Positions 6,548 to 34,380 of a stretch of 34,380 nucleotides of DNA are shown here, one piece after another; within the stretch, counting starts at the first letter, position 1, and the number at the start of each line of letters is the position of its first letter. Source of the DNA: Chloroflexaceae bacterium (GTDB lineage Bacteria > Chloroflexota > Chloroflexia > Chloroflexales > Chloroflexaceae); contig JAAUTZ010000038.1 in the NCBI GenBank assembly GCA_012031225.1, positions 1 through 34,380 of the forward strand. The letters run 5' to 3'. The translations under genes and the position numbers were made by a program. The notes beneath the pieces were generated by a model. It saw only the letters and a list, made by a program, of their open reading frames with translations, did not search any database and was not told the DNA's origin.

Positions 6548-6557
6548 ATGTGTTCGT

Positions 6558-8902: not shown

Positions 8903-9511
8903 ATGGCAACCAACGAGACGTACCAACTCGCGCATGCCCTCGCCGATGTGCTACCAGCGCAGGGCACATGGACGGCGGCGGACTATTGCTGGCTCACGGA
9001 GCGCACCAACCGCCTGATTGAATTGGCAGATGGGCGTTTGGAGGTGTTACCGATGCCGACTGAACAGCACCAACGGATCGTGCTGGCCCTGTACCGCCTG
9101 CTCTATGCCTACATCCTCGCCACCCACCCGCACGGCATCCTGCTGGTGGCTCCGCTGCGGCTGCGGCTTAGCCCGCACCGCTACCGTGAGCCAGACCTGC
9201 TCTACCTGCACGCGCCCGACGATCCGCGCCGCACCGACACCCACTGGGATGGGGCGGATCTGGTGCTTGAGGTGGTTAGTCCGAGCAATGCCGAGCTGGA
9301 TCAGGTGACGAAGCGACGCGAGTATGCCGCGCACGGTATTCCCGAATATTGGATTGTAGACCCGCTCGCAGCCACGTTGACGGTGCTGGTACTGCCCGAT
9401 CAGCAGCACGCCTACAGCGAACATGGCTGCTTTCGCCCCGGTATGCTCGCCACCTCGCCAACATTCGCCGGACTACAGCTAGATGTGCAGACGGTATTCG
9501 GTGGGGCGTAG
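8903..9511 (+). CDS. Uma2 family protein (DUF820, PD-(D/E)XK fold)
   Basis: A 202-residue Uma2-family protein, a group with a restriction-endonuclease-like fold that is highly multiplied in Cyanobacteria and Chloroflexota and whose function remains uncertain. The family pattern is clear: IELADGRLEVLP near the start, REPDLLYL, then DLVLEVVSPSN, and KRREYAAHGIPEYWIVDP. The acidic residues of REPD and LVLEVVSPSN would form the nuclease-like active site. A ribosome site (AAGGAG) precedes the ATG by a normal distance. It starts 74 bases after the ATPase gene and may have its own promoter (TATACT at 8839-8844). No toxin or antitoxin partner is next to it. Confidence 0.88.
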   Translation: MATNETYQLAHALADVLPAQGTWTAADYCWLTERTNRLIELADGRLEVLPMPTEQHQRIVLALYRLLYAYILATHPHGILLVAPLRLRLSPHRYREPDLLYLHAPDDPRRTDTHWDGADLVLEVVSPSNAELDQVTKRREYAAHGIPEYWIVDPLAATLTVLVLPDQQHAYSEHGCFRPGMLATSPTFAGLQLDVQTVFGGA

Positions 9512-9516
9512 GCGTT

Positions 9517-9579
9517 GGGGTCAGGTGCTAGGGATCAGGGGTCAGGTGCTAGGGGTCAGGGGTCAGGTGCTAGAGGTCA
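9517..9579. repeat. Three tandem 21-bp repeats
   Basis: Three head-to-tail copies (9517-9537, 9538-9558, 9559-9579) with core GGTCAGGTGCTAGG. Copies 1 and 2 differ at one base and copy 3 differs from copy 2 at one base. They lie just downstream of the Uma2 stop. Confidence 0.9.
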
Positions 9580-9595
9580 GATCAGGCAGAGGAGC

Positions 9596-9631
9596 GGGGA
9601 TAGGGTACAAAGCTGCCATAGCCCTGTCCCC
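9596..9631. terminator. Hairpin between convergent Uma2 and DJ-1 genes
   Basis: GGGGATAGGG (9596-9605) pairs with CCCTGTCCCC (9622-9631), ten pairs with one G-U wobble and a 16-base loop. An alternative uses AGCGGGG/CCCCGCT (9593-9599, 9634-9640). It probably acts as a terminator or transcript-end stabiliser for both genes; no U-run follows. Confidence 0.45.
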
Positions 9632-9657
9632 TGCCCCGCTTGCTGAACACGAGCCGC

Positions 9658-10239
9658 CTATAGCTCGATGCGTGTACCGAGCAGCTTGAGGAACTGATTG
9701 ATGAGGTCGGGATGGGTGGGCCATGCTGGGCCACTCACGAGATTGCCTTCAGTGTGGGCTTGGCTCGCGGGGATGTCTACGAACTTGCCGCCCGCACGGG
9801 TGACATCGGGGCCGCAGGCGGGATAGGCGGAACACTCGCGCCCTTCGAGTACGCCTGCCGCCGCAAGCACTTGGGCCCCGTGGCAGATCGAGGCGACGGG
9901 CTTGTTGGTCTCAAAGAAGTAGCGCACCATCTCCAGCACACGCGGGTTCAGGCGGATGTACTCCGGCGCACGCCCACCGGGAATCACGAGTGCGTCGTAA
10001 TCTTCCGCCCGTATCTCATCGAAGTTGGCATTCAAGACAAAGTTGTGACCGGGCTTCTCGCTGTAGGTTTGGTCGCCCTCGAAATCGTGAACAGCCGTGC
10101 GGACGAACTGGCCACTGGTTTTTTCGGGGCAGACGGCGTGGCACACATGCCCCACCGCTTGCAGCGTCTGGAAGGGAACCATCACTTCGTAGTCTTCGAC
10201 ATAATCACCGACGATAAACAGGATGTTTTTGGCAGCCAT
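9658..10239 (-). CDS. DJ-1/PfpI family protein
   Basis: A 193-residue member of the DJ-1/PfpI (class I glutamine-amidotransferase-like) superfamily. Members act as proteases, glyoxalase/deglycase-type stress proteins or chaperones. The nucleophile elbow is [10 protein letters not shown], with Cys119 followed by His120, and the upstream Glu/Asp region is [12 protein letters not shown] (Glu near residue 15-18). [15 protein letters not shown] is also typical of the PfpI branch. The ATG at 10239 ([12 protein letters not shown]) is preceded by AGAGGAG and is preferred to an in-frame codon at 10299. No signal peptide is present. Substrate or stress role cannot be decided from sequence. Confidence 0.9.
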
Positions 10240-10327
10240 TGGCACATCTCCTCTTGGTGGTCTTACATTGATACACCGCATTGGGCCAGTGCTATTCATA
10301 GCGCACTAGCATTACTTTCATAGTGCT

Positions 10328-10339
10328 TTTAGTATACCA
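10328..10339 (-). promoter_or_regulatory. Extended -10 promoter for the DJ-1/PfpI gene
   Basis: On the minus strand TGGTATACT reads as an extended -10 (TGn-TATACT; the hexamer is 10331-10336). No good -35 is visible, as is usual for extended -10 promoters. The start codon lies about 90 bases downstream. Confidence 0.4.
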
Positions 10340-10485
10340 TACGAATGAGGCAGGTGAGGGGCGGACTTGGGCAACCGAGCCGCACGAAACGCGGCTGGTT
10401 GCGAAATATCCGTGAACTAGCCGTACCGGTTACGCGCCTGCCCTCCCCCCTGCGAATTGCACTAGGCAGGGTGAGGAGAATGTAG

Positions 10486-10491
10486 TATAAT
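10486..10491 (+). promoter_or_regulatory. -10 box placing the dehydratase transcript start at its ATG
   Basis: A perfect TATAAT ends six bases before the ATG at 10498, so transcription should begin at or within a base or two of the start codon. The only ribosome-site-like word (AGGAG, 10474-10478) lies upstream of the -10 box and would not be in the mRNA. Confidence 0.6.
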
Positions 10492-10497
10492 CATCAG

Positions 10498-11481
10498 ATG
10501 ACAGAAACACCGTTCACCCTTGACAGGTTTGCTGCTGCCCGCCAGCGCATTGCGCCCTATGTGCGCCATACGCCCATGCTGCCTGCACCCTTGCTGCACC
10601 ACGATAGCCCGCATGGGCTACAGCTCAAGCTCGAAAATATGCAGATCGCGGGGTCGTTCAAGGTACGCGGCGCATTTAATACCCTGCTCAGCCTTGAACC
10701 CGAACAGCAGCAGCGTGGGGTCGTCGCGTCGTCGGGCGGCAATCATGGGCTAGCGGTGGCGTGTGCCGCGCAACGCTTGGGGATCCCCGCCACGATCTAC
10801 CTGCCTGCCACAGCCACCCCAGATCGGGTTGCCCGCATTCACCAATTCGGGGTTGATCTGGTCACGCACGGCACATCATGGGATGAAGCCCACGCCCGCG
10901 CCCTTGCCCACGCCGAAGCAGATGGGCTGGCGTATGTGCATCCGTTTGACGATCCCCGCACTGTGATCGGGCAGGGCACGCTGGCGCTGGAACTGCTCGA
11001 TGATCTACCCGATCTGGATTGCGTGGTGATTGCGATTGGGGGAGGCGGCTTAATCGCAGGCATGGCGGCCGTGCTGAAGCAGAGCCGCCCGCAGATCCGC
11101 ATCATTGGGGTCGAGCCGAAGGGCGCGGCAAGTATGCACCACAGCCTGCAACGCGGCTTTGCCGAGCGGCTGCCGGAGCCATCCAACACGATTGCCGATA
11201 CGCTCGCGCCGCGCAAAGTGGGGGATTATACCTTTGCGTTGGCGCAACAGTATGTGGATACGGTGGTGCAAGTAGACGATCTGGCAATGGTGCATGCGAT
11301 GCGCTGGCTGTGGCGCGAGTGCAACCAGCTGGTTGAGCCAGCTGGGGTAGCGGTCATCGCCGCCCTGCATAGCGGTGTCGCCGATCTGCACGGGGCGGTT
11401 GCGCCGGTTGCTGTAATCTGTGGCGGCAACGCAGCAGCGGGCAGCGTGTTCGAGCTGTACCAGCAGGCGATTCGGAGCTGA
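10498..11481 (+). CDS. Threonine/serine dehydratase (PLP, fold type II)
   Basis: A 327-residue pyridoxal-phosphate enzyme of the threonine dehydratase / serine racemase family. It deaminates L-threonine to 2-oxobutanoate, and/or serine to pyruvate. The Schiff-base lysine is K55 in GSFKVRGA, the cofactor-binding loop is SSGGNHG (78-84), and the phosphate-cradle Gly loop is GGGG (181-184). There is no C-terminal ACT regulatory domain, so it resembles the short catabolic type rather than the isoleucine-feedback-controlled IlvA. Near the C-terminus VICGGNAA fills the usual SGGN position with Cys for Ser. It is followed after 20 bases by the M20 peptidase gene. The transcript appears leaderless. 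Confidence 0.9.
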   Translation: MTETPFTLDRFAAARQRIAPYVRHTPMLPAPLLHHDSPHGLQLKLENMQIAGSFKVRGAFNTLLSLEPEQQQRGVVASSGGNHGLAVACAAQRLGIPATIYLPATATPDRVARIHQFGVDLVTHGTSWDEAHARALAHAEADGLAYVHPFDDPRTVIGQGTLALELLDDLPDLDCVVIAIGGGGLIAGMAAVLKQSRPQIRIIGVEPKGAASMHHSLQRGFAERLPEPSNTIADTLAPRKVGDYTFALAQQYVDTVVQVDDLAMVHAMRWLWRECNQLVEPAGVAVIAALHSGVADLHGAVAPVAVICGGNAAAGSVFELYQQAIRS

Positions 11482-16345: not shown

Positions 16346-16738
16346 ATGCACGAACTACCCGTCACACAAGGTATACTGAGTATTGTGCTAGAAGCTGCCG
16401 AGCAAGCAGGCAGCTACCCCGTGCAGCGGATTGATCTTGTGATCGGTACGCTCAGCAGCATCGTAGATGATTCGGTACAGTTTTATTTCGATGCGCTCAG
16501 TGCGGGCACGCTCGCCCAAGGCGCACAGCTCAGCTTTCGGCGCGTGCTAGCCACGCTGACGTGCGGGGCGTGCGGCTATCAGGCGCAGGTGATCGCGCCG
16601 CTACCGGATTGTTGTGCGGCGTGTGGCAGCACCGAAGTATTGGTCGAAGATGGGATGGAGTTCTACGTCGAAGCTATCGAAGTGGAGGAGCCGAACAATG
16701 CATGTTCCAATTGTGAAATCAATCCTGACGAGCAATGA
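16346..16738 (+). CDS. hypA: Hydrogenase nickel-insertion protein HypA
   Basis: A 130-residue HypA. It starts MHELPVTQGIL, giving the invariant N-terminal Met-His-Glu nickel site, so the ATG at 16346 is chosen over the in-frame codon at 16331. The zinc site is made of two CxxC pairs (CGACGY and CAACGS). HypA delivers Ni to the hydrogenase large subunit together with HypB. It is about 15 residues longer than most HypA proteins, with a tail containing another CSNC; this tail is encoded by the 41 bases overlapping hypB and may be non-essential. It is the first gene of hypABCDE. No strong promoter is evident in the 138 bases upstream. Confidence 0.92.
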   Translation: MHELPVTQGILSIVLEAAEQAGSYPVQRIDLVIGTLSSIVDDSVQFYFDALSAGTLAQGAQLSFRRVLATLTCGACGYQAQVIAPLPDCCAACGSTEVLVEDGMEFYVEAIEVEEPNNACSNCEINPDEQ

Positions 16739-17363
16739 CCAGATCGCCGCCGAGAACAAAGCCGTGCTGGATCAGCACGGGGTCGTCGCGGTCAACCTGA
16801 TGGCATCGCCGGGGGCCGGCAAAACGAGCCTGATCCTAGCTACGGCGCGCTCCCTTCCGGCTGCGTTACGCCCAGCCGTGATTGAGGGCGATCTCGCATC
16901 CAGTATTGATGCCGAACTGATGGCGAAAAACGGGATTCCGGTGGTGCAGATCAACACCGGCGGCAACTGCCACCTCGATGCGCCGATGATCCGCTCGGCT
17001 TTCCCGCACCTACCCTTCGGCGAGTTTGAGCTACTGCTGATCGAGAATGTCGGCAACCTTGTGTGCCCCGCCAACTTTGCGCTGGGAGCGCACCTTGCGC
17101 TGGTTGTGGCGAGTGTGCCCGAAGGCCATGATAAGCCCTACAAGTATCCGGGCATGTTTGCCGCCGCCGATGTGGTCGTGCTGAATAAGGTTGAGCTGAA
17201 AGAGGTCTTTGAATTTGATCCGGATTACTTCTGGCGCGGCGTGCAGATGCTCAAGCCCGAAGCCCCGATCTTTGAGGTCTCGTGCCGCACCGGAGCCGGT
17301 GTGGCAGAATGGGCGGCGTGGCTTGCCCAGCATGTGGCAGGCGTAGCCACCCAGAACACATAA
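16698..17363 (+). CDS. hypB: Hydrogenase nickel-incorporation GTPase HypB
   Basis: A 221-residue SIMIBI-class GTPase. The P-loop is MASPGAGKTS, followed by EGDLASSIDA, the switch-like INTGGNCHLDA and the metal-site motif ENVGNLVCPANF, and the guanine-specificity motif NKVEL. It hydrolyses GTP to drive nickel transfer from HypA to the hydrogenase large subunit. It lacks the His-rich nickel-storage stretch found at the N-terminus of some HypB proteins. The ATG at 16698 (MHVPIVKS) is preferred over the upstream in-frame codon because GGAGG lies just before it. The gene overlaps hypA by 41 bases in another frame and is followed after 30 bases by hypC. Confidence 0.94.
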   Translation: MHVPIVKSILTSNDQIAAENKAVLDQHGVVAVNLMASPGAGKTSLILATARSLPAALRPAVIEGDLASSIDAELMAKNGIPVVQINTGGNCHLDAPMIRSAFPHLPFGEFELLLIENVGNLVCPANFALGAHLALVVASVPEGHDKPYKYPGMFAAADVVVLNKVELKEVFEFDPDYFWRGVQMLKPEAPIFEVSCRTGAGVAEWAAWLAQHVAGVATQNT

Positions 17364-17393
17364 CACGCACAGAGCGCAAGAAAGGAACCGGCA

Positions 17394-17681
17394 ATGTGTC
17401 TCGGCGTACCGGGTAAGGTGTTGACCTTGGATGAGAACTCCTTCGGCATAACGATGGGGCGCGTCAGCTTTGGTGGGATTGTTAAGGAAGTTTGCTTGGC
17501 GTATGTGCCAGAGGTGCAGGTGGGCGATTTCGTGGTGGTGCATGTCGGCTTTGCGATCAGCACGATTGATGAGCAGGAGGCGATCAAGGTGTTCGCGTTG
17601 CTGCGTGATATGGGTGAATTGGATGAGCTAGAGATCGCGCAGCCTACCGCGAGCCTGCCGCCCACCGTGCCCGCCCCGTGA
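17394..17681 (+). CDS. hypC: Hydrogenase maturation chaperone HypC
   Basis: A 95-residue HypC/HupF protein beginning MCLGVPGKV. Cys2 carries the Fe(CN)2CO unit with HypD and later contacts the hydrogenase large subunit. The OB-like core follows (VKEVCLAYVPEVQVGDFVVVHVGFAISTIDEQEA), with the conserved HVGFA. The C-terminal 15 residues are Pro/Ala-rich and not conserved in the family. AAGGA precedes the ATG. It is spaced 30 bases from both hypB and hypD. Confidence 0.95.
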   Translation: MCLGVPGKVLTLDENSFGITMGRVSFGGIVKEVCLAYVPEVQVGDFVVVHVGFAISTIDEQEAIKVFALLRDMGELDELEIAQPTASLPPTVPAP

Positions 17682-17711
17682 GCGATCAGCCCCAATCCAG
17701 AAGGAGCGACG

Positions 17712-18830
17712 ATGAAGTTTGTAGATGAATATCGTAGCGAAGCTGATGCACAGCGATTTGTCCAACTCATCAAACAGACCGCGACCCGGGAGTGGACGCT
17801 GATGGAGATTTGCGGGGGGCAAACCCACACCCTGATTAAATCCGGCATTGACCAACTCCTGCCGGATGCGATCACATTGGTGCATGGGCCCGGCTGCCCG
17901 GTATGTGTCACGCCGCTGGAGATGATTGATCGGGCGATTGCGATTGCCCGCCGCCCCGAAGTGATCCTGACCTCATTTGGCGATATGCTGCGGGTGCCCG
18001 GCTCGGCAACCGATCTGCTCAGGGTCAAGGCCAGCGGCGGCGATGTGCGGATCGTCTACTCGCCGCTTGATGCCGTCAAGCTCGCCCAGCAGCACCCAGA
18101 GCGGCAGGTCGTCTTTTTTGCCGTCGGCTTTGAAACGACGGCTCCCGCCAATGCGATGGCGGTCTGGTCGGCGGCCCGGCAGGGCCTAGCGAACTTCTCG
18201 ATCCTCTGCTCGCATGTGCTTGTGCCGCCCGCAATGGAAGCCCTGCTCAGCTCGCCCGATACCCTGATTGACGGCTTCCTTGCGGCGGGGCATGTGTGCG
18301 CCGTGATGGGCTATGCGGAGTATGAGCCACTGGCCGAGAAGCACCAGATCCCGATTGTGGTGACGGGCTTTGAGCCACTCGATCTGCTCGAAGGGATCTA
18401 TCGCACGGTGCTCGCACTGGAAGAAAACCGCGCCGAAGTGGAGAACCAGTATGTACGCGCCGTGACCCGCAGCGGCAACCGAGCCGCCCAGAATCTAGTG
18501 CAGCAGGTGTTTATGGTCTGTGATCGGCAGTGGCGCGGGATCGGCATGATCCCCCAGAGTGGCTACTGCCTGCGCCCCGAATATGCCCGCTACAACGCCG
18601 AGCTACGCTTTCAGGTGGGCAACCTGACCGCGCAAGAATCGCCGTTGTGCATCTCCGGCTTGATTATGCAGGGGCGGGCCAAGCCCTGCGACTGTAGCGC
18701 ATTTGGCACGCTCTGCACGCCGGAGCAACCGCTCGGTGCGCCGATGGTCTCATCTGAAGGAGCCTGCGCCGCCTACTACCACTACGGCACCCACCGTGAG
18801 GAGCAACCCCATGAGCCAGCCCCCGCTTGA
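17712..18830 (+). CDS. hypD: Hydrogenase iron-cofactor assembly protein HypD
   Basis: A 372-residue HypD, the scaffold with a [4Fe-4S] cluster on which the Fe(CN)2CO group is built with HypC and HypE. Conserved blocks are [50 protein letters not shown], the [10 protein letters not shown] region, and the late cysteine block [31 protein letters not shown]. Full length for the family. A strong ribosome site (GAAGGAG) precedes the ATG. It overlaps hypE by 20 bases, suggesting coupled translation. Confidence 0.96.
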
Positions 18831-19932
18831 TCCAACCCTTGCGCTAGCTGATGTCGGGGCAGCCTTGCTAGCCCAGCAATGCCCCTTCCCCATCAGCGAT
18901 TACCCACAGGTGCTGATGGCGCACGGCGGCGGTGGGCGGCTCACCCAGCAATTGATCGAGCGGATGTTCGTGCCCGCCTTCCGCAACCCGCAGCTCGAAG
19001 GGCTGCACGATGGGGCCGTGCTAACGGTGGGCAACACGCCGGATGATCCGACACAAGGCACGCGCTTGGCGTTCTCCACCGACTCGTATGTGATCCAGCC
19101 GTTGTTCTTTCCGGGCGGCGATATTGGCGCATTAGCCGTGCATGGCACAGTCAACGATCTGGCGATGTGTGGAGCCCAGCCGCTTGCGCTCTCCTCTGCG
19201 CTGATCCTCGAAGAGGGCTTGCCAATGGCCGATCTCTGGCGCATCGTGCAATCTATGCAGCAGGCTGCCCAGCACGTCGGGGTGCCCATTGTCACCGGCG
19301 ATACAAAGGTGGTGGATCGCGGCAAAGGCGATGGCGTGTTTATCAATACGGCGGGGATCGGCGTAATTCCGGCGGGCGTGCAGCTTGGCCCCAGCCGCGC
19401 CCGCGCCGGCGATGTGGTGATCGTGAGTGGGGCCATTGCCGTACACGGGATTGCGATTATGTCGGTACGCGAGGGGCTAGCCTTCGAGACCACCCTTGCC
19501 AGCGACACTGCGCCCCTGCATACGCTGGTTGCCGATCTGCTGGCGGCGGGCGGCGCGGCGGTGCATGTCCTGCGCGACCCGACCCGCGGCGGGCTAGCCA
19601 GTGCCCTAAATGAGATTGCGGCGCAGGCACGGGTAGGCATCCGCCTTGATGAAGCCAGCATCCCGCTGGCCGAAGAGGTGCGCGGCGCGTGCGAGATATT
19701 GGGGCTAGACCCGCTGTATGTAGCGAACGAGGGCAAGTGCCTTGTGATCGTAGCCCACGACGCGGCAGATGCTGTGCTCGCGGCGATGCACGCCAACCCG
19801 GATGGTGCGGAGGCGGCGGTGATTGGCACGGTGGTAGCCGAGCATGCCGGCACGGTGGTAATTCGTAGCCGCATCGGAGGCACGCGGGTGGTGGATATGC
19901 TCAGTGGCGAGCAGCTGCCGCGTATTTGCTAA
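18811..19932 (+). CDS. hypE: Carbamoyl dehydratase HypE
   Basis: A 373-residue HypE, a PurM/AIR-synthase-fold enzyme that converts the carbamoyl group placed on its C-terminal cysteine into thiocyanate for the hydrogenase cyanide ligands. The C-terminus reads EQLPRIC, so the essential terminal Cys is intact. Other family blocks are [47 protein letters not shown] and [15 protein letters not shown]. The ATG at 18811 (MSQPPLDP) has AGGAG at a normal distance; the upstream in-frame codon at 18703 lies deep inside hypD. HypF, which supplies the carbamoyl group, is not in the window. Confidence 0.95.
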
Positions 19933-23667: not shown

Positions 23668-24585
23668 TTATGCATGCGCGGCGGGTAGGGCTTGCTGGGC
23701 AAGGGCGATGGCTCCTAGCACCCCCGCTTGATTGCCCAATCGCGGCGCAACAATATAGTCGGCAAGGCCGCCTTCCTGTAGGGCGGCGGCTTGGATATAG
23801 CCGTTCAAGTAGCGTTGCACGTTGGTGCGGATCATGGGCAGCAGGTGCGGCTGAGCCATCACGCCACCGCCCATGATGATGCGCTGCGGCGAAAGCGTGC
23901 AGATGAAGCTCTGCAACGCGAGCGCAAGGTAGTGCGCCTGCAACGCCCACGCCGGATGTTCGGGCGACAGGTGCTGCGCGGGCACGCCCCACCGCACCGC
24001 CAGTGCAGGCCCACAGGTCAGCCCTTCGAGGCAATCGCCATGAAACGGGCAATGCCCAGCATACGGATCAGCCGCCGGATCACGCGGCAGGCGGATGTGC
24101 CCTAGCTCCGGATGTACCAAGCCGTGCAGCAAGCTGCCATTGACCATCACGCCACCGCCTACGCCCGTGCCAATCGTGAGGTAGATGAAGGTGGCCACAT
24201 CTTGGGCGGCTCCCCAGCGATGCTCGCCTAATGCTGCGCCATTTACATCGGTGTCAAAGGCAATCGGTACACCGAGTGCTGCACCGAGCATACCCGCGAC
24301 ATTGGTGTGCTGCCAGCCGGGTTTGGGCGTGGTGGTGATGTAGCCATAGGTAGGCGAGGCTGGGTGCGGGTCAGCTGGGCCAAAGGCGGCCACACCGATT
24401 GCCCCAAGCTGCCCGTAGCAGGCTTGCTGTTCCTGAAAAAAGGTGATCGCGTGAGCGAGGGTTTCAGCCGGCGTTGTCGTCGGGAAGCGCACCTCTGCGC
24501 GAATATCATCAGGGGCAGTGCCGACGGCACACACAAATTTCGTCCCCCCAGCTTCGATTCCCCCTACCAGCAGCGATGCGTGCAT
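23668..24585 (-). CDS. ROK family sugar kinase (fructokinase-like)
   Basis: A 305-residue ROK kinase that phosphorylates a hexose with ATP. The N-terminal phosphate loop [13 protein letters not shown] is characteristic of the bacterial fructokinase branch. [20 protein letters not shown] and the zinc site [10 protein letters not shown] with [16 protein letters not shown] follow. The second phosphate motif is [14 protein letters not shown] lies before the ATG. It is the first gene of a minus-strand operon with ArsR-ArsC and DUF1294; the link between sugar phosphorylation and the arsenate module is unclear. Fructose is the best guess for substrate, with glucose or mannose possible. Confidence 0.9.
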
Positions 24586-24744: not shown

Positions 24745-26748
24745 CTAGCGCACCTGCACCTCTGCCAGCACCAGCGCATCGGTGCCGCTTAGGGCGGGAT
24801 CGGCGGGCACGCCCCCCACGAGCGGCAGGCGTTGCCCTGTCGTGGGGTCGTACCAGCCGATCAGGATGCGGTACGTACCTGTTTGCGCGGGTAGCTCGAG
24901 CGGAATCTCAAGCGGCATATACCGCCCCACTTGCCATGTGCTGGTGGGGTAGGGCAGATCAAGCTGGGCAACTCGTTGGCCCTGCCCATCCACCACATGC
25001 ACAAACAGCCAATCATCGTGGGGCAGCGGCGCACGCACCAGCCAATGGCACGTCAGCGTCAGGCGGGTGGCCGGCGCAAGCTGATCGAGCGCAGGAGCGG
25101 CATTGCAGCCGTGCAAGCCCAGCACAGCGCCAAAGGTTACAGGGGCGCGTGTCGGCTGTATTGCTACCTCTGGCGGCACATCGTAAATCCACGCATAGTC
25201 TACGCCGTGAATGGTGACAACATGGAGGGGCGGAACCTGCCCATAGAAGCGGTCAGAAGGGGGCAGCGGCGCACCGCCTTGGACCTCGCTCAGATAGACA
25301 ACCAGATAGCCCGCATTGCGGCGTAGCTCGCCCTCACGCGGAAAGAAGGCTTGGGCCCCCGCTTTCATGTATGGGTTGAGCGAGGTAATCATGCGGCTGA
25401 CGGTGAGAACACCGGTAATATCCTCTTGCTGATTCAGCCAATCCGCCACCAGATTGAAGCCCTCGCCCCAGCCCGCACTCAGGGTGCGGGCCCCCATCGG
25501 CGCACCACCGAGCAGTTGATTGAAGGCGGCGATGCTGTAGGGGTGCCAGAGCGCAATGTTGAGCGTTGCGAGGAGTGCAAGCAGAGCCACGCCCCCACGC
25601 TGCCACAGGCGGGCTGCCGCAGGGCGGAGGCGGGCGGTTGCCCCAGCGAGCAAGCCGCCCCAGCCGGCCGCCGCCAGCACATCCAGCAACGGAAACACCG
25701 GCAAGATGTAGCGGTTGAACTGCTTGGCAAACAGGCTCATCGCACATACAAACAGCACCACAAAGACGATCAGGAGCAGCAGCGTGGGGCGGGCGGGGCG
25801 CACCACCGGCTGCCGCCACACCACCGGCAGGAGCAGCAGGCCCAGCATAGTGAGCGGCGTGAGCCGGAGCGCAATTGCCACCGGATAGTGCAGCACGCCC
25901 GGCACGTCGGTGCGCTGCCCCAGAAAGAAGTTACCACTCTGATGGGGTTGGATGCCCTCCGCTGTCACCCCCACCTTGAACAGTTCCAGCACCTGTAGCG
26001 GCGCAGCCCACAGAGCCGGATAGAGCAGCAGCAGCACGCCAAGATAGACCCCGCCCCAGATCAGCGCATCGGAGCTTGCCTGCCGCAGCCACTGCCGCCC
26101 GCAGCGTTCCTGCCAGCGCACCGCCCCGATCACCAGCAGGCTAAACGGTATAAGGATCACGCCCGGCGACTTGCTCAGCACGGCAAACGCCGCCCCCGCT
26201 GCCGCCAGTGCCAGCCAGTGCGGGCGATGGAGCGGGCTGTGCCGCCAGCTTGCCAGTGCCACAAGGCTGAGCAGCACGCCACTACTCAGCAGCGCATCTA
26301 CGTGTAGCAGGCGGCTGTAAGCGACGAAGAATGGATCGGTTGCCCAGAACACCGCTGCCAGCACTGCTATCGGGAGCCAGATCAGGCGGCGCAAGAGCGC
26401 AAACGCTACAAGCAGGATGGCCGTGTGCATCAGGACAACAGCGAGCCGCGCCGATGCGAGCAACAGCGCGAACGAGTCCGTCGGCAGGATGCCCGCCCGC
26501 AACAGCCCCTCGCGCACCGACGTGCCAATCGCACCGAGCCACATCGTCGTTACGCCGGGGTGCGGGGTGATCGCTGTGCCCGCCGGATCGCCGGCTTGCA
26601 GGGCTTGCAGGAACAGCTTGCTGCGCCGTAGCCAGAACTCGGCTTCATCGTGGGTGACAAACAAGCCCAAGTTTAACACACGCGGAAGCAGGAATAGCAA
26701 CGCCAACCCTAGCCACAGCCCTAGTGTTTGCAACCTGCGCCACTGCAC
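24745..26748 (-). CDS. Family-39 glycosyltransferase paralogue 1 (last gene of array)
   Basis: A 667-residue member of the same family as the three genes upstream. The acidic pair after the first membrane segment is FVTHDEAEFW, followed by the shared PHPGVTTMWLG. It is the most divergent copy: AKQFNRY replaces PKKFNRY, and it lacks the PDAGGNALLLP C-terminus common to the other three, ending instead SGTDALVLAEVQVR. The C-terminal beta-rich domain (RLTLTCHWLVRAPLPHDDWLFVHVVD...) is retained. It begins with GTG two bases after the previous stop, with GAAGGGA upstream as the ribosome site. No signal peptide other than the first membrane segment. Confidence 0.87.
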   Translation of the reverse strand: MQWRRLQTLGLWLGLALLFLLPRVLNLGLFVTHDEAEFWLRRSKLFLQALQAGDPAGTAITPHPGVTTMWLGAIGTSVREGLLRAGILPTDSFALLLASARLAVVLMHTAILLVAFALLRRLIWLPIAVLAAVFWATDPFFVAYSRLLHVDALLSSGVLLSLVALASWRHSPLHRPHWLALAAAGAAFAVLSKSPGVILIPFSLLVIGAVRWQERCGRQWLRQASSDALIWGGVYLGVLLLLYPALWAAPLQVLELFKVGVTAEGIQPHQSGNFFLGQRTDVPGVLHYPVAIALRLTPLTMLGLLLLPVVWRQPVVRPARPTLLLLIVFVVLFVCAMSLFAKQFNRYILPVFPLLDVLAAAGWGGLLAGATARLRPAAARLWQRGGVALLALLATLNIALWHPYSIAAFNQLLGGAPMGARTLSAGWGEGFNLVADWLNQQEDITGVLTVSRMITSLNPYMKAGAQAFFPREGELRRNAGYLVVYLSEVQGGAPLPPSDRFYGQVPPLHVVTIHGVDYAWIYDVPPEVAIQPTRAPVTFGAVLGLHGCNAAPALDQLAPATRLTLTCHWLVRAPLPHDDWLFVHVVDGQGQRVAQLDLPYPTSTWQVGRYMPLEIPLELPAQTGTYRILIGWYDPTTGQRLPLVGGVPADPALSGTDALVLAEVQVR

Positions 26749-26750
26749 GG

Positions 26751-28865
26751 CTAGCGCATCCCTTCAGGGGCGGGCGGCTCCGGTGCGCCCAGCGTCATCG
26801 GGAGTAGCAGCGCATTGCCGCCCGCATCCGGTGCGTCGGGCGGTGGCGGCGTAGCAACGGGCAGCCGCGCAAAGGTTGCCGGATCGTACAGCCCTAGGGC
26901 CAGCCAATACGCGCCGTCGGCTAGATCGGGCGGGAGCGGCAGCACATGCCGCCATGTGTAGACCCGCGCAGCTTGCCATGTTGCGAGCGGTGCGCTCAGT
27001 CCGGCGGGCGGCACATCGGCTTGGGCAAGGCGGTTGCCCTGCTGATCGAGCAGGTGCAGAAACAGGAGCGGCTCCGGCAGGGGCGGGCTAGCACTGTGCC
27101 ATTGCAGCGTCACATCGAGCTGATCGGCGGTGGGGCGGGCAAGGCTGTAGCCCCGTAGCGTGACGGTATGCGGCGCAGCCCCAAACTGGTCAGCGCGTTC
27201 GTGCTGCATGCGCGGCGGGATCTGGTAGATCCGGGCGTGCGGCACGCCATGCAACGTAACCGTATGCACAGGCGTAGCACGCGGGTAGAATTGATCGAAG
27301 GGCGGAAAGACGATCCCCTGCGTCTGGTAGATGTAGACCACCGCGTAGCCCGCCTGATCGGGGATGGTGCTGCCGCGTGGCGTGATGATCTGTGCGCCGT
27401 GTTGCAAGTAAGGCCCCACAACATTCGCTTTGATCGAGAGGGTCAGCACGCCCGTAATATCCTCCTGCTGATTCAGCCACGCCGCCACTTGGTCGTAGCC
27501 TTCGCCCCACCCAGAGGAGAACATCCACGTTCCGGCGCGGGTTCCGCCCAACAGTTGGTTGAACGCAACAATCGCATACGGATGCCAGAAGGCGGCATTC
27601 AGCGCGGCGAGGGCAATCAGCGTAGTGAGGGTTGCCTGTTGCACCAGCGTGTGCAGGCGCGGCTGAACAGTGCGCGTGAGCCACGCCATCCCACCGACGA
27701 TGCCCGCCGCCGCGAGGATGTTCAGAGCGGGAAAGACGGGCACGATATAACGGTTGAACTTCTTGGGGAAGCCGCTCATAGCGAGCGTGAACAGCAGCAC
27801 AAACAGCCCCAAGATCAGCAGGGTGCGCTGGAATGGCTGCACCTGAGGCTGCCGCCACACCACCGGCAGCAGCAGCAAGCCCAGCAGCATGTGGGGTGTG
27901 GTTCGCATAAGGATAGCCATCAGGTAGAAATCCCAGCCCGGCACCGGATTGACGCGCCCCATGTAGTAGTTGCCAACTTGGTGGGGCTGTGCGCCTTCCG
28001 CCGTCACCCCCGTTGTAAACAGTGCGAGCACTTGCAATGGAGCGGCCCACAGCGCGGGGTAGAGCAGGAGCAAGGTGAGGGCATAGGCACTGCCCCAGAC
28101 CACCCCCGCCCGCACTGCCTGCATCAGCCAGCCGCGCCAGCCCTGCGGCGCAAGGCGGGCCTGCCAATACGCATATAGCACCACCACCCCCGCAAACGGC
28201 ACAAGCATGATGCCGGGCGATTTGCTCAATACGGCAAACGCCGCAGCAACGCCCGATGCCACCAGCCAGTAGGGGCGGATGTGCGGGCGCGGATCATCGA
28301 GCCAACACGCCAGCGCGAGGATGCTCAACGTTGCGCCAGTCATCAGCAGCGCATCCACATGCAGCAGGCGGCTGTAGGCAATCACAAACGGATCGGCGGC
28401 CCAAAACACCGCACCGAGCAGGGCAATCGGCGGCTCGACGAGGCGCAGCAGCATGGCATAGCCCAGCAAGATCGCGGCGGTATGTGCGAGCGCAAGTGGC
28501 AGACGCATCAACGCCATCTGCGTGGCATAGTCCATATTCGCCACCATGCCGCTGGACTCTACCGCCTGCCGCAGCAGGATGCCCGCACTGCCTAGCCACA
28601 TCGTCGTTACGCCGGGGTGGGTCGAGATTGCGGTATCGCCGAAGTTGCCCGTGCTTAGGGCGTTCAGGAAGATCAGCGAGCGGCGCGTCCAGAAATTGAC
28701 TTCATCGTCGGTGACAAACTGCCCCAGATTCAACACACGCGGCAAGAGGGCAATCAAGCCGACGGTGAGCCACAGCACCGCCGGATGCAGCGCAACGTGA
28801 ACCAGCGCAGGTGTGGGCACAGGGCTAACGAGGGGAGCTGGGCGGGTCGAACTGGTCTCGCTCAC
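26751..28865 (-). CDS. Family-39 glycosyltransferase paralogue 2
   Basis: 704 residues. The GTG at 28865 (VSETSSTRPAP) is chosen: AGGAG lies eight bases before it and it overlaps the preceding stop as GTGA, whereas the in-frame codon at 29084 lies far inside the upstream gene. The first membrane segment is followed by the catalytic-type FVTDDEVNFW and by HPGVTTMWLGSAG. FPKKFNRYIVPVFPALN marks the conserved basic loop, and GWGEGYDQVAAWLNQQEDITGVL begins the extracytoplasmic part. The tail carries LQWHSASPPLPEPLLFLHLLDQQGNRLAQADVP and ends with PDAGGNALLLP, closely matching paralogue 3, so these two are probably the most recent duplicates. Confidence 0.88.
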   Translation of the reverse strand: MSETSSTRPAPLVSPVPTPALVHVALHPAVLWLTVGLIALLPRVLNLGQFVTDDEVNFWTRRSLIFLNALSTGNFGDTAISTHPGVTTMWLGSAGILLRQAVESSGMVANMDYATQMALMRLPLALAHTAAILLGYAMLLRLVEPPIALLGAVFWAADPFVIAYSRLLHVDALLMTGATLSILALACWLDDPRPHIRPYWLVASGVAAAFAVLSKSPGIMLVPFAGVVVLYAYWQARLAPQGWRGWLMQAVRAGVVWGSAYALTLLLLYPALWAAPLQVLALFTTGVTAEGAQPHQVGNYYMGRVNPVPGWDFYLMAILMRTTPHMLLGLLLLPVVWRQPQVQPFQRTLLILGLFVLLFTLAMSGFPKKFNRYIVPVFPALNILAAAGIVGGMAWLTRTVQPRLHTLVQQATLTTLIALAALNAAFWHPYAIVAFNQLLGGTRAGTWMFSSGWGEGYDQVAAWLNQQEDITGVLTLSIKANVVGPYLQHGAQIITPRGSTIPDQAGYAVVYIYQTQGIVFPPFDQFYPRATPVHTVTLHGVPHARIYQIPPRMQHERADQFGAAPHTVTLRGYSLARPTADQLDVTLQWHSASPPLPEPLLFLHLLDQQGNRLAQADVPPAGLSAPLATWQAARVYTWRHVLPLPPDLADGAYWLALGLYDPATFARLPVATPPPPDAPDAGGNALLLPMTLGAPEPPAPEGMR

Positions 28866-30940
28866 GGGGTTGGCTCCTGTGCGCTCGCAGTACCCAACTC
28901 GATAGGCAACAGCAGCGCATTGCCGCCCGCATTTGGTGCATCGGGTGGAGGTGGAGGAGCGACGGGCAGCCGCCCCAATGTTGCCGGATCGTACAGCCCC
29001 ACTGCCAACCAATACGGGCCCGGCGGCAGATCGGCAGGAAGCAACAGCGGGTGCGTCCATGTGTAGGTGCGGCGCGGGGACCACGCGGCGAGCGGCAAGC
29101 TATCGCCAAGCAGGGGGACATCGGCTTGGGCAAGGCGGTTGCCAGCCGCATCAAGCAGGTGCAAGAACAGCAACGGCTCCGGCTGCGGGCGGGCAGGCGT
29201 GGGCAGCTGCCATTGCAGGGTAACGCTGAGTGCGCTGGTGGTATGCGCGAGGCTATAGCCGCGTAGCACGAGCGGTGCATTAGGCAGGCCAAACTGATCG
29301 TTGCGGGCGACATCTACGGGTGGCGGAACATGGTAGATCCACGCATACGCAACGCCGTGAATGGTGACGGTATGCACGGGAAGTTCGCGCCCATAGAAGG
29401 CATCGAAGGGCGGGCGTAGGCGTTCGCGCTGCGGTGCGGCAACATCTATCACAACGTAGCCCGTCTGCGCTGGCAACACGCCTTGCTCGGCGGCGGTGGT
29501 TTGGGCACCATACACAAGGTAGGGCTGCAATGGGCGGCGGAGCGTGCTTGCAATTCGCACACCGGTAATCTCTGGTTGTTGGTTTAGCCACGCCGCCACC
29601 TGCTCCATGCCCTCGCCCCAGCTAATCACAAAGGTGCGTGCGCCCATCGGTGCGCCACCGAGTGCCTGATTAAACGCGGCTATGTGATAGGGGTGCCACC
29701 ACCACCCATTGAGGAGGGCGAGCGCGGCAATCGTGGCCGCCCCCAATGGCAGGGCCCGGGCCGGCGCGGGGGGCTGCCGCAGGCGGGCAAGCCATGTCAC
29801 GGCGGCACTGAGCGCAACCGCCGCAAGGATGTTGACGGCGGGAAAGACCATCACGAGGTAGCGGTTGAACTTCTTCGGGAAAAGGCTCATTGCCAGCGTG
29901 AACAGCAGGATAAACACGACGAGCACAAGCAGGCTGCGGCGGGCAGCAGGCGTTAGCCCCAGCAGTGGCTCCAGCCGCAACCACACCAATGGCAACAGCA
30001 GTAGCCCCAGCAGGCTGATCGGGGTGGTGCGGAGGGCGAGCGCAACTGGATAGAACAGCATACCCGGCGTATCCAGCACTTGCCCCAGAAAGAAGTTACC
30101 CTGCATATGTGGTACGGCTCCTTCTGCCTCCACCCCAAAGCGCAACCAGCCATACACTCCCAGCGGATCGGACCATACGGCGGGATAGACCACCACAAGT
30201 GTCAGCAGGAATGTGCCCCCCCACGCCGCGCCCGTTGTGAGGATGTGGCGCACGGGGTTGCCTGTTGCGGGCGCGGCAAGGATCGCCATGCCTGCAATGA
30301 TTGGCAGCAGCACCAGTGCGGGCGATTTGCTGAGGACGGCAAGTCCGGCGCACACTGCCGAGAGCAGCAGATAGCCCCATTGCGGGCGGTGCTGCCAGTA
30401 GATACATGCCGCCAAGAGGCTGAGTGTAGCCAAACTTGTCATCAGCCCATCTACGTGCAAGATCCGGCTGAACGCCAACACAAACGGATCGGTAGCCCAC
30501 AACACCGCCGCGAGCAGCGCAACCGCAAATGGCAACATGCGCTGCAAGAGTACGAAGCCCAGCACAATTGCCCCCGTATGCACCAGCGCGGCAGGCAGGC
30601 GATAGAACAGCACCAGCGTGGCATAGTCGGGGTTGGGGAGCCAGCCCGCCGCCGCCACGCTATCCCGGAGCCACAGCCCCGCCGCACCGAGCCACATCGT
30701 CGTGACACCCGGATGCGAGCTGATCGCCGTAGCCGCATAGTCACCCATGCGGATCGCCTCACGGAAGCGTTGCGAACGCTCAAACCAGAATGTCACCTCA
30801 TCGAGCGTGACAAAGCCGCCCAAGCTGTGCAAGCGTAGGGGCAGGGCAATCGCTACGAGCAGCAGCAGGGACCACCCGTGCCGGGCACGAAAGCGCAAGC
30901 GAGATTGTTCATTGGGCAGCGTTTGCAAGATGTGCATCAT
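28862..30940 (-). CDS. Family-39 glycosyltransferase paralogue 3
   Basis: 692 residues. It begins MMHILQTLPNEQ, four bases after the stop of paralogue 4; the next codon is also ATG, and the ribosome site is weak (AGG within TTAGGTAA). FVTLDEVTFW supplies the acidic pair and SHPGVTTMWLGAAG the next conserved loop. ATDPFVLAFSRILHVDGLM and FPKKFNRYLVMVFPAVN match the corresponding blocks of the other copies. The C-terminal domain is VTLQWQLPTPARPQPEPLLFLHLLDAAGNRLAQADVPLLG, ending PNAGGNALLLPIELG. Confidence 0.88.
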   Translation of the reverse strand: MMHILQTLPNEQSRLRFRARHGWSLLLLVAIALPLRLHSLGGFVTLDEVTFWFERSQRFREAIRMGDYAATAISSHPGVTTMWLGAAGLWLRDSVAAAGWLPNPDYATLVLFYRLPAALVHTGAIVLGFVLLQRMLPFAVALLAAVLWATDPFVLAFSRILHVDGLMTSLATLSLLAACIYWQHRPQWGYLLLSAVCAGLAVLSKSPALVLLPIIAGMAILAAPATGNPVRHILTTGAAWGGTFLLTLVVVYPAVWSDPLGVYGWLRFGVEAEGAVPHMQGNFFLGQVLDTPGMLFYPVALALRTTPISLLGLLLLPLVWLRLEPLLGLTPAARRSLLVLVVFILLFTLAMSLFPKKFNRYLVMVFPAVNILAAVALSAAVTWLARLRQPPAPARALPLGAATIAALALLNGWWWHPYHIAAFNQALGGAPMGARTFVISWGEGMEQVAAWLNQQPEITGVRIASTLRRPLQPYLVYGAQTTAAEQGVLPAQTGYVVIDVAAPQRERLRPPFDAFYGRELPVHTVTIHGVAYAWIYHVPPPVDVARNDQFGLPNAPLVLRGYSLAHTTSALSVTLQWQLPTPARPQPEPLLFLHLLDAAGNRLAQADVPLLGDSLPLAAWSPRRTYTWTHPLLLPADLPPGPYWLAVGLYDPATLGRLPVAPPPPPDAPNAGGNALLLPIELGTASAQEPTP

Positions 30941-30944
30941 TTAC

Positions 30945-33053
30945 CTAACGCACCACAAGCGGCAACAGCAGCGCATTGCCGCCCGCATCAGGGGCTATGG
31001 GCGGCGCAGGCGTGGCTACCGACAGGCGGGCAAATGTTACTGGATTGTACAGCCCGATAGCCAGCCAGTACGTATCCGGCGGCAGATCGGCGGGCACGGG
31101 CAGGGGATGCGCCCACGTCAGGGTGCGCCCTACTTGCCATGACGTTGGGGGCTGGGCGGTTCCGGCGGGCGACACGTCAATCTGGGCCACTTTCTGCCCC
31201 TGTGGATCCAGCACATGCACAAACATCAGGTACTCCTGCATCGGTGGCTGCTGGGCCTGCCACTGCACCGTCAAGGTGATGCCGTGCCCGCCGCGCAAGC
31301 CCTCCAGATCGGTCTGGGTGCCGCGTAGGGTCAGGGCATCGCCGAAGGTTGCATTGTGCAGATCGGCGATGGGCGGCGCAAGCTGATATACAGATGCGAG
31401 TGTTACGCCATGTGCCTGCACGGTATAGACAGGCGTTTGGTTGGCATACACGGCTCCAAATGGCGCGGCGGGTATGCCCCGTTGGGTATGGCGCACGTAG
31501 ATCAGGGCGTAGCCATCCTGCACCGCGAATTGCCCATTGCGCGGCGTGCTACTCTGTGCGCCACGCATCAGGAAGGGTTGTAGCGAGTTAATCATGGTGC
31601 TGGACACGCGCACCCCCGTAATATCGGGCTGCCCATTCAGCCAACGCGCTGCCTCGCCTAGCCCCTCGCCATCGCCGATCAGGAAGGTACGCTCGGCGCG
31701 AGGTGCGCCCCCGACGATCTGATTATAGGCGATCACGCCGTAGGGGTGCCACCAGAGCATATTCAGCGCGGCGAGGCTAATCAATGCCGCCACCCCGAAC
31801 GGCAACACTCGCGCTGCAAGCGGAACAGCCCCACCGCGCAGATCACGCAGGCGCAGCAAGGCCCACACCCAGCCCGTCGCAGCGAGGATGTCGAGGGCGG
31901 GAAACACAGGCACACTGTAGCGGTTGAGCTTTTTAGGGAATAGGCTCATCGCAAGTACAAATACTAAGATGTAGGCGGCCAACAACGCCAGCATGCGCCG
32001 CGTGCTAGCACTGTCAGCATCGCGCCGCCACACGAACGGCAGCAACAGCAATCCGATCAGCGTGAGTGGGGTTGTCCGCATGAGCAGTGCAACCGGATAG
32101 TAACGAGCATCGGGGGTATCGGTTGCTTGCCCCAAGAAGAAGTTGCCGATCACATGCGGGCTTGCGCCTTCAATTTCCACGCCGACCCGCATTTGCTGCC
32201 ACGCCCGCGCCGGATCCACCCATAACGCCGGATAACACAGCCACAGCGTTAGGGCGAAGGTGGCTGCCCACGCCCCTAGCGCAAGCAGCACGCGACGCAG
32301 GGGCATGCCGTCGTAGTGCCATGCCGCAATCCCCGCCAAGCCAATGATCGGGATCACGGCCACGCCGGGCGATTTGCTCAAGGTGGCCAGTGCGCCTGCC
32401 CCCGCCGAGAGCAGCAGATATGCCGGATGCCCGCCGCGCACCCAGAAGATGCCGCCGGCCAACAGGCTGAGCGTAGCAAAGGTGGTCGTCAAGCCATCTA
32501 CGTGGAGGATGCGGGCATAGGCAACAACAAACGGATCCGTTGCCCAGAATGCCGCCGCCAACAGCGCAAGCGCGACTCCGCCCGGCTCTGGACTGCGGGT
32601 GGCAAACAGGCGATGCAGCAGCAGATAGCCGAGCAGCACCCCGCAGGTATGCACCAGCGCAATTGGCAGGCGCGAGAGGGTCAGGCTGAGCGGGAAGGGG
32701 ACATCGGCCAGCACGCCCGCCGCGACGAGGCTGTCGCGCAGGAGAATGCCCGCGCTGCCCAGCCACATCGTGGTTACGCCGGGGTGGGTAGACTGCGCGG
32801 TCTCAGCAAAATTGCCGCTCTGCATGGCATCAAGGAAGCGCATCGAGCGCGGCATCCAGAAGTTGATCTCATCGCTATCGAGGAACAGGTGCAGCGTTAG
32901 CAGGCGCGGCACGCCCGCTAGCAGCAACACGCCCACCAACAGGAGCAGGCGCACAGCGAGGCGCACCCCGCGTGCTGCTGGTGCGCTCGTAGTGGGGGCT
33001 GCGCTCGACGGGGCTGCGGCTGATGGAGATAGCATACGCTCGTGTGCTGACAT
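30945..33053 (-). CDS. Family-39 glycosyltransferase paralogue 4 (first gene of array)
   Basis: A 702-residue integral membrane glycosyltransferase of the PMT/ArnT-like family 39 superfamily. These enzymes take a sugar from a polyprenyl-phosphate carrier and transfer it to a protein, lipid or glycan outside the membrane. After a short Ser/Ala-rich cytoplasmic start and the first membrane segment comes FLDSDEINFW, the position of the catalytic acid in the first extracytoplasmic loop. Other blocks are STHPGVTTMWLG, ATDPFVVAYARILHVDGL and FPKKLNRYSVPVFPALD. About ten membrane segments precede a C-terminal domain of about 200 residues rich in beta strands (ITLTVQWQAQQPPMQEYLMFVHVLD). The ATG at 33053 has no ribosome site; the ATG at 33035 is an alternative. 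The sugar and acceptor are unknown. Confidence 0.88.
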   Translation of the reverse strand: MSAHERMLSPSAAAPSSAAPTTSAPAARGVRLAVRLLLLVGVLLLAGVPRLLTLHLFLDSDEINFWMPRSMRFLDAMQSGNFAETAQSTHPGVTTMWLGSAGILLRDSLVAAGVLADVPFPLSLTLSRLPIALVHTCGVLLGYLLLHRLFATRSPEPGGVALALLAAAFWATDPFVVAYARILHVDGLTTTFATLSLLAGGIFWVRGGHPAYLLLSAGAGALATLSKSPGVAVIPIIGLAGIAAWHYDGMPLRRVLLALGAWAATFALTLWLCYPALWVDPARAWQQMRVGVEIEGASPHVIGNFFLGQATDTPDARYYPVALLMRTTPLTLIGLLLLPFVWRRDADSASTRRMLALLAAYILVFVLAMSLFPKKLNRYSVPVFPALDILAATGWVWALLRLRDLRGGAVPLAARVLPFGVAALISLAALNMLWWHPYGVIAYNQIVGGAPRAERTFLIGDGEGLGEAARWLNGQPDITGVRVSSTMINSLQPFLMRGAQSSTPRNGQFAVQDGYALIYVRHTQRGIPAAPFGAVYANQTPVYTVQAHGVTLASVYQLAPPIADLHNATFGDALTLRGTQTDLEGLRGGHGITLTVQWQAQQPPMQEYLMFVHVLDPQGQKVAQIDVSPAGTAQPPTSWQVGRTLTWAHPLPVPADLPPDTYWLAIGLYNPVTFARLSVATPAPPIAPDAGGNALLLPLVVR

Positions 33054-33077
33054 ATTTTTTGGCTGTGCCTCGTGTGT

Positions 33078-33106
33078 ATCCTAGCACAGGACGGCGTGCG
33101 GTGCAA
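33078..33106 (-). promoter_or_regulatory. Possible promoter of the glycosyltransferase operon
   Basis: On the minus strand TTGCAC (33101-33106), 17 bases, TAGGAT (33078-33083), with the start expected about 20 bases before the ATG at 33053. Both hexamers are imperfect. Confidence 0.4.
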
Positions 33107-33136
33107 TGTGAAGGAGGTGATAGGGATTAGGTGGGC

Positions 33137-33179
33137 GGGGATCAGGTGGCAGCGAATCCTGATCTGCCACCTGATCCCC
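33137..33179. terminator. Perfect 16-bp hairpin downstream of the sortase gene
   Basis: GGGGATCAGGTGGCAG (33137-33152) and CTGCCACCTGATCCCC (33164-33179) are exact complements around an 11-base loop, five bases after the sortase stop. It probably ends sortase transcription or insulates the glycosyltransferase operon promoter. It uses the same GATCAGGTG words as the other intergenic repeats of the window. No U-run follows on either strand. Confidence 0.7.
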
Positions 33180-33183
33180 GTTG

Positions 33184-33855
33184 CTACTCTGGTAGGGCAA
33201 TCGTGATCAAGCGGTGGCTCATATCCACCGTATTATCCACGACAATCTTGTCGCCGATGCACGAGACTAGCGTGAGTTGCTCGCGCCCCTGTGGGAGAAT
33301 GAAGTTGACCTGATCCGGCGTAACCCAAAGTTGCTCGGCAACGCGGTAGGTAAACACCTGCCCGGCCTCATTGTGCAGCGCAATCGTGGCACCCACCTGA
33401 AGTTCGTGCAGCCGCGCAAACGGCGCGGGAATCTCCGGCGCATCGCGGAAGCGCAGCACATGCCCCCACAGCACGACATTCTCACCTGCGCCGGGCAGGG
33501 CACTGTAGAAGTACCAGCCAATATCATGCTTGGGCACAATCGGCACGCGCTCGGTATCTAAGCCCACTGGCACAAGCGGCTGATCAACGGCAATTGCATC
33601 AATCACGACCCGGATCGGATCACCCGCCAGAACCGCCGGTTGGGGCACAGCTGTCACGGCAATCCGTGGCTCGGCGGCGGCATCTAGCTCCGGCAGATCG
33701 AGCGGCACATCCGGCGCACGCGCAGGCTGCACAGGCACCCCAACGGTTGCTGTTGCGAGGGGCACGGGTACAGTCGGCAAGGGTTGCCCGCTTGCACCAC
33801 AGCCCTGTATGAAGAATATGCTTCCGAATAGCAGGATAAGCCAACGTTGAAACAT
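33184..33855 (-). CDS. Sortase-family transpeptidase with lipoprotein signal
   Basis: A 223-residue sortase. The N-terminus MFQRWLILLFGSIFFIQGCGASG is a lipoprotein signal with lipobox FIQGC (Cys19), so the enzyme should be lipid-anchored outside the cytoplasmic membrane rather than held by a membrane helix. A Pro/Val/Ala-rich spacer (about 25-75) follows. The catalytic core has His132 in LWGHV, Cys199 in LTLVSC and Arg215 in SHRLI, all three catalytic positions. Sortases cut a C-terminal sorting signal and join the protein to a surface amine. The ATG at 33855 is preceded by GAGAGGAG; further upstream in-frame sequence runs into the divergent gene. It is divergent from a secreted Thr/Pro-rich protein, a natural candidate partner. 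Confidence 0.87.
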   Translation of the reverse strand: MFQRWLILLFGSIFFIQGCGASGQPLPTVPVPLATATVGVPVQPARAPDVPLDLPELDAAAEPRIAVTAVPQPAVLAGDPIRVVIDAIAVDQPLVPVGLDTERVPIVPKHDIGWYFYSALPGAGENVVLWGHVLRFRDAPEIPAPFARLHELQVGATIALHNEAGQVFTYRVAEQLWVTPDQVNFILPQGREQLTLVSCIGDKIVVDNTVDMSHRLITIALPE

Positions 33856-33991: not shown

Positions 33992-34380
33992 ATGCACAAG
34001 CCACATCGAACGCGGCTGTACTTTATTGCCTTTGTTGCCAGCATCGGAGCTACGCTGCTCGTGCTGTTTGGTTCTGCCCATGCGCCAATGCTGCGCTCCG
34101 TCGCCGCCCAGACCGTCATCACCCCAACAGTAACGGCGCAGCCAATTGCGACGAACACGCCTACACCCGAAGTGGGTGGCCCAACACCAACCGCTACGCC
34201 GCCTAGTGTCGCCACACCTACACCCGAAGGCGGCGACCCAACACCAACCGTTACCCGCATTCCAGTTACCTTCGTTCCGGCTAGCCCTACGGCTACGCCC
34301 GAAGTGGGCGGCCCAACACCAACCGCTACGCCGCCTAGTGCTGCCACACCTACACCACCGAAGGCCCGAAGGGCCGGCCC
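33992..34380 (+). CDS. Secreted Thr/Pro-rich repeat protein, 5' end
   Basis: Only the first 129 codons are in the window. The ATG at 33992 has AGGGGAGA upstream. The N-terminus MHKPHRTRLYFIAFVASIG with a hydrophobic core ending near SVAAQT is a signal peptide. What follows is low-complexity: TNTPTPEVGGPTPTATPPS, repeated with variation about three times (two near-identical copies at 34159-34211 and 34297-34343, and a looser one between them). Such Thr/Pro linkers are typical of Chloroflexota surface proteins and are usual sites of O-glycosylation and wall-spanning. No domain or sorting motif is visible yet because the C-terminus is missing. The last 25 bases depart from the repeat (KARRAGP), possibly another base error or the contig end. 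Confidence 0.75.
   Translation, partial: MHKPHRTRLYFIAFVASIGATLLVLFGSAHAPMLRSVAAQTVITPTVTAQPIATNTPTPEVGGPTPTATPPSVATPTPEGGDPTPTVTRIPVTFVPASPTATPEVGGPTPTATPPSAATPTPPKARRAG
34159..34343 (+). repeat. Degenerate Thr/Pro-coding repeats
   Basis: The segments CCCGAAGTGGG(T/C)GGCCC followed by AACACCAACCGCTACG and CCGCCTAGTG occur at 34159-34211 and again at 34297-34343, with a partial copy (CCCGAAGGCGGCGACCC and AACACCAACCG) at 34224-34255. They encode the PEVGGPTPTATPPS repeat of the secreted protein. Confidence 0.75.

Follow-up and report, generated by a model that had tools for sequence, protein, structure and literature searches.

Four tandem PMT/ArnT-type GT-C transferase genes in a Chloroflexaceae bacterium, with envelope protein O-glycosylation as a candidate role

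The stretch of DNA analyzed here (the window, 34,380 nt) is from contig JAAUTZ010000038.1 of assembly GCA_012031225.1, a Chloroflexaceae bacterium (Chloroflexales). By ORF calling, positions 24745-33053 are occupied by four complete GT-C genes in tandem on the minus strand, transcribed in the order copy 4, copy 3, copy 2, copy 1. The array and its neighbours are laid out as follows.

33992..34380, plus strand: secreted Thr/Pro-rich protein, truncated where the contig stops and divergent from the sortase gene
33184..33855, minus strand: sortase, class F-like, with a lipobox-like N-terminus (223 aa, counted from the ATG at 33855; PF04203, 62.6 bits)
33137..33181, minus strand: 17-bp perfect hairpin between the sortase gene and the array (fold z-score -5.9), a dispersed genomic repeat
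33054..33125, minus strand: region upstream of the array, carrying a TTGCAC-17-TAGGAT block conserved in a sibling species, a candidate promoter
30945..33053, minus strand: GT-C copy 4, transcribed first (702 aa; ORF)
28862..30940, minus strand: GT-C copy 3 (692 aa; ORF)
26751..28865, minus strand: GT-C copy 2 (704 aa; GTG start within the GTGA overlap with copy 3)
26766..27284, minus strand: predicted Ig-like beta-sandwich of copy 2 (residues 528-700; AF2 pLDDT 93.7), with equivalents in the other copies
24745..26748, minus strand: GT-C copy 1, last gene of the array (667 aa; divergent C-terminal domain)
23668..24585, minus strand: ROK-family sugar kinase, downstream of the array (PF00480, 221 bits; fructokinase-like)

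The original prediction had placed four paralogous family-39 glycosyltransferases here, and its coordinates, its lengths of 667-704 residues and its junctions of 4, -4 and 2 bases were right. Read directly at the gene ends, these junctions are a 4-nt gap between copies 4 and 3, a 4-nt GTGA overlap between copies 3 and 2, and a 2-nt gap between copies 2 and 1. The overlap, which has an AGGAG upstream of it, suggests coupled translation of copies 3 and 2, and it is plausible that the four genes form one transcription unit. Four open frames of about 700 codons, each under purifying selection (omega 0.14-0.15), would not occur by chance. The TTGCAC-17-TAGGAT block was not listed by a simple promoter scan. 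The ROK kinase gene is possibly its own transcription unit; a promoter-like site precedes it (24662-24634), at a level expected by chance for the scan. The 15-base arm of the hairpin has 18 matches in the genome at up to one mismatch, and its reversed control has none. Elsewhere in the window, a cobalamin riboswitch (RF01482, 55.1 bits) lies at 6442-6587 on the plus strand, directly before a FecCD-type transporter gene and an ABC ATPase gene, and the genes at 16614-19932 (plus strand), encoding a CobW/HypB-type GTPase, HypD and an AIR-synthase-like (HypE-type) protein, are likely a hydrogenase maturation set.

The same four GT-C genes, in the same order, are found in a sibling species (genome G001, contig CALCJV010000064.1, locus L102), where the region beyond the array is complete. 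The sortase, which scores 53.9 bits against the class F model, under its cut-off, has an orthologue there (omega 0.12). The Thr/Pro-rich protein is encoded in full at 8947-9786 of the sibling locus and is followed by a TMEM260-like (PF11028) gene at 9868-11373. On the window side, the C-terminal part of the Thr/Pro-rich protein is found on another contig (C157, locus L130), followed by a TMEM260-like GT-C gene and then by a large GT-C-like gene. Since this order matches the complete order of the sibling, C157 probably adjoins the window contig (C74), with the break inside the Thr/Pro-repeat gene. Joined in this way, the sortase, Thr/Pro-rich protein and TMEM260-like genes occur in the same order in both species, a context that suggests glycosylation of a secreted Thr-rich protein. 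We also considered canonical LPXTG anchoring of the Thr/Pro-rich protein. The pentapeptide is present (LPDTG/LPETG), but there is no hydrophobic tail, and the protein is therefore not a canonical sortase substrate. Nor was a functional neighbourhood conserved across Chloroflexota found: homologues of the three genes adjoin the array only within the genus, the sole exception being one weak TMEM260-like match at locus L090. As the sortase and Thr/Pro-rich neighbourhood was not found at the more distant arrays, the link to a protein acceptor is at the genus level only. No GtrA/DPMS_TM domain was found in the genome of the window or in that of the sibling.

Thirteen positions are invariant across 63 homologues, and conservation is 90% or higher at more than 60 further positions. 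By alignment, all four copies keep the 13 invariant residues, together with the DE pair, HPGVTT and the HxD. The DE pair, kept in 98-100% of the homologues, is D54 E55 in copy 2 and lies between model helices 28-44 and 53-72, i.e. in the TM1-TM2 loop; this first external loop is well conserved between the copies (53-65% identity). D171 of copy 2 lies 117 residues after D54, close to the D84-D197 spacing of ctPmt4, and the catalytic DE motif of PMTs is in the TM1-TM2 loop as well (PMC12705809). In the C. glutamicum PMT, replacement of the DE pair abolished complementation (PMC11727336).

The assignment to family 39 stood only in part. The PMT profile (PF02366, curated cut-off 22.7 bits) matches copy 1 at 27.5 bits and copy 2 at 37.6 bits, but in the same Pfam scan it does not match copies 3 and 4, and neither the MIR domain nor the PMT_4TMC C-terminal TM domain was found in any of the four copies up to an E of 1. 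PMT_2 is matched by all four, with copy 3 at 42.2 bits and copy 4 at 20.7 bits, under the cut-off. Among NCBIfam models, the best for every copy is Agl23 (TIGR03663), at 17.4-32.9 bits, none of which reaches the curated cut-off of 126.25 bits. A single-sequence search found no solved relative, and a profile search with 63 rows reached Pmt1 at an E of 0.0002. Copy 2, modelled by AF2 with 63 homologues, takes the fold of a GT-C membrane enzyme at a pLDDT of 93.4. The top matches of the model by VIA-align are effectively tied: Pmt2 (Z 27.5, 388 residues aligned, 3.7 A), Pmt4 (Z 27.2) and ArnT (5f15; Z 26.5, 432 aligned, 6.4 A, with 16% identity in the alignment). With ArnT within 1 Z of Pmt2, the fold does not point to GT39 in particular. 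The matches also include ALG9/ALG12 and Emb/Aft, and enzymes of the ArnT and ALG type, whose acceptors are lipids or glycans, would fit the modelled fold almost equally well.

The last ~170 residues of copy 2 are predicted to fold on their own as an Ig-like beta-sandwich, which answers the call of the original prediction for a model of this domain. Its expectation that all four copies keep the DE pair, HPGVTTMWLG and a beta-rich C-terminal domain held in the alignment, the beta fold itself being predicted for copy 2 only. The tail said to be shared by three copies was found as PDAGGNALLLP in copies 2 and 4 and as PNAGGNALLLP in copy 3, and the divergent one is SGTDALVL in copy 1, whose C-terminal domain is the most divergent of the four (37-41% identity to the others). 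The nearest fold is the Ig-like domain of a GH2 enzyme (Z 10.2 by VIA, 103 residues, 2.2 A), a likeness of predicted fold to which we attach no function. A carbohydrate-binding module was considered and is unsupported, as Foldseek returned weak matches (NPC2, GH2 and the Wzt C-domain; best E 0.003) and the GH2 match was the best by VIA at a Z of ~10.

The copies are old and have diverged without decay. Each one pairs in the tree with its own orthologue in the sibling species (support 100/100), at 91% identity for copy 1 (573 codons, omega 0.152), copy 2 (omega 0.138) and copy 3 (omega 0.138), and at 92% for copy 4 (omega 0.144). The duplications, which the original prediction had proposed to date by phylogeny, are thus older than the split of the two species, and would also predate the genus split. 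In a third genus (genome G011, locus L108), a 59% relative of copy 4 precedes a relative of copies 1 and 2. Within the window set, the pairing of copies 1 and 2 as sisters is firm (support 100/99), and holding all four window copies as one clade gives an AU p of 0.156. Among themselves the four copies share 44-52% identity, far from the near-identical copies that simple dosage would call for. The absence of decay claimed earlier was borne out: the open frames and the omega of each copy give no sign of untranslated or decaying copies. Copies that are old, diverged and all conserved speak for neither dosage nor decay, and a separate role for each would be the best reading of them. A further family member (locus L099, 4769-6978, contig C82 of genome G000) is split over two overlapping frames, by either a frameshift or a sequencing error; it is intact in the sibling (locus L103, 7550-9694).

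Tandem arrangement of this family is not unusual in Chloroflexota. Tandem members were found at 26 of the 61 loci examined, with 35 lacking a close tandem neighbour, although the loci were mostly drawn by motif search and 26/61 is not an unbiased rate. For example, the cassettes at three loci (L066, L085 and L135) have four paralogues ordered full-short-short-full, the short ones lacking the C-terminal domain. Genes at matching positions of the cassettes group together in the tree, first with first, second with second and so on, with one additional copy at position 1 in L066. With the further PMT-family genes that flank them, these cassettes stand in rows of six or more; L085 and L135 each have six, and the L085 row has a sulfatase and genes for sulfate activation beside it. 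The pairs seen in Anaerolineae and in family f9 follow the same position-matched order. The Chloroflexales clade to which the window copies belong does not include these expansions. As position-matched paralogues are orthologous between genomes in several lineages, ordered arrays formed more than once and were retained afterwards, a pattern that would be best explained by division of labour, which may run by acceptor, by sugar or by successive steps. It is conceivable, and we put it forward tentatively, that Chloroflexota assembled ordered tandem sets of 2-6 PMT-like enzymes on repeated, independent occasions, that the order was kept as each position is a fixed step in one surface glycan or glycoprotein coat, and that the window set is the Chloroflexales version. 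Nothing relevant on tandem PMT-like arrays in Chloroflexota was found in the literature searched. An unusual mixed array was seen in Chloroflexaceae UBA1466 (genome G008, locus L105, 1859-18616), where genes for Ser/Thr protein kinases, a PrsW protease and a caspase-domain protein are interspersed among five GT-C copies; of the kinases, one has WD40 repeats, one has a zinc ribbon and one is fused to thioredoxin.

On balance, we lean towards reading the array as four active, non-redundant PMT/ArnT-type GT-C transferases, each with its own role in the surface coat and with an O-glycan on Ser/Thr-rich secreted proteins as the most likely product. We infer that the four copies are active and that they use a lipid-phosphate-sugar donor and a protein acceptor, as well as how exactly they divide the work. 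Each enzyme would draw its sugar from a polyprenyl-phosphate carrier and carry out the transfer on the outward-facing side of the membrane, making use of the DE pair in its first external loop and of another acidic residue, that of the HxD. Tandem duplication before the genus split would have been followed by retention of every copy in its own role. The neighbouring Thr/Pro-rich protein would be the first candidate acceptor, and the adjoining sortase, this protein and the TMEM260-like enzyme of the sibling make envelope protein O-glycosylation the leading, if unproven, role.

The main rival is an assembly line on a single glycan, in which the four enzymes would act in succession on one growing lipid-linked or surface glycan and add one residue each, like ALG3/9/12 or Emb/Aft. 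The presence of ALG9/ALG12 and Emb/Aft among the fold matches, the ordered cassettes kept between genomes and the rows of six PMT-family genes are consistent with it, and the sulfate-activation genes and sulfatase of L085 would suit a complex surface glycan. However, the neighbours of the window array are a sortase and a Thr/Pro-rich protein instead of polysaccharide export or nucleotide-sugar genes, and the order of steps is not readable from sequence. We regard successive action as a real but rather unlikely alternative.

We find hetero-complexes, which the original prediction had also suggested, improbable; in these, the paralogues would pair with one another as Pmt1 and Pmt2 do, and the set would yield different dimers. 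PMTs of matching fold are obligate dimers (PMC12705809). The tight packing of the genes, with an overlap suggesting coupled translation, would suit such complexes, but family loci without a close tandem neighbour are common (35/61). None of the four copies has a MIR domain, the domain that acts across the dimer of Pmt1 and Pmt2. It is very unlikely that some copies are catalytically dead, or are donor-lipid flippases or regulators instead of transferases: the sub-threshold match to TIGR03663, named 'flippase activity-associated protein Agl23' (17-33 bits vs 126), is weak, and every copy keeps every invariant residue, DE and HxD included. Simple dosage, with extra copies giving more of one activity, would fit a single transcription unit but is disfavoured to the point of being barely credible by copy-specific orthologues, equal purifying selection and homogenisation that was not seen, and in the form of near-identical copies it is ruled out by the level of identity and the separate orthologues.

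Taken alone, the locus exemplifies a common arrangement in Chloroflexota, where protein and envelope glycosylation seems little studied. The array offers a limited set of paralogues whose active sites are intact, together with matched sibling orthologues and an adjoining candidate acceptor, which makes work-sharing among duplicated GT-C enzymes testable.

Among known systems, the Agl23 family (TIGR03663) is the best NCBIfam model for all four copies, although far under its cut-off. TMEM260-like (PF11028) proteins are of GT-C type too and are encoded beside the array in the sibling and on C157, but as a separate gene and family distinct from the four copies. ArnT (GT83), which uses a polyprenyl-phosphate-sugar as donor, is bacterial and shares the GT-C core (Z 26.5 over 432 residues). 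In contrast to the proposed protein acceptor, the acceptor of ArnT is lipid A; its C-terminal domain differs, identity in the structural alignment is low, and no arn-type genes are among the Pfam-scanned genes of the window. From the GT39 PMTs (yeast Pmt1/2/4 and the actinobacterial PMT), the window copies differ in having an Ig-like C-terminal domain instead of a match to PMT_4TMC or to MIR, a domain of the eukaryotic members, in forming four tandem paralogues, and in that copies 3 and 4 match the wider PMT_2 only (copy 4 under the cut-off). What they share with these PMTs is the GT-C core (Z 27 over ~385 residues) and a first external loop with the DE motif; copies 1 and 2 also share the PF02366 match above the cut-off.
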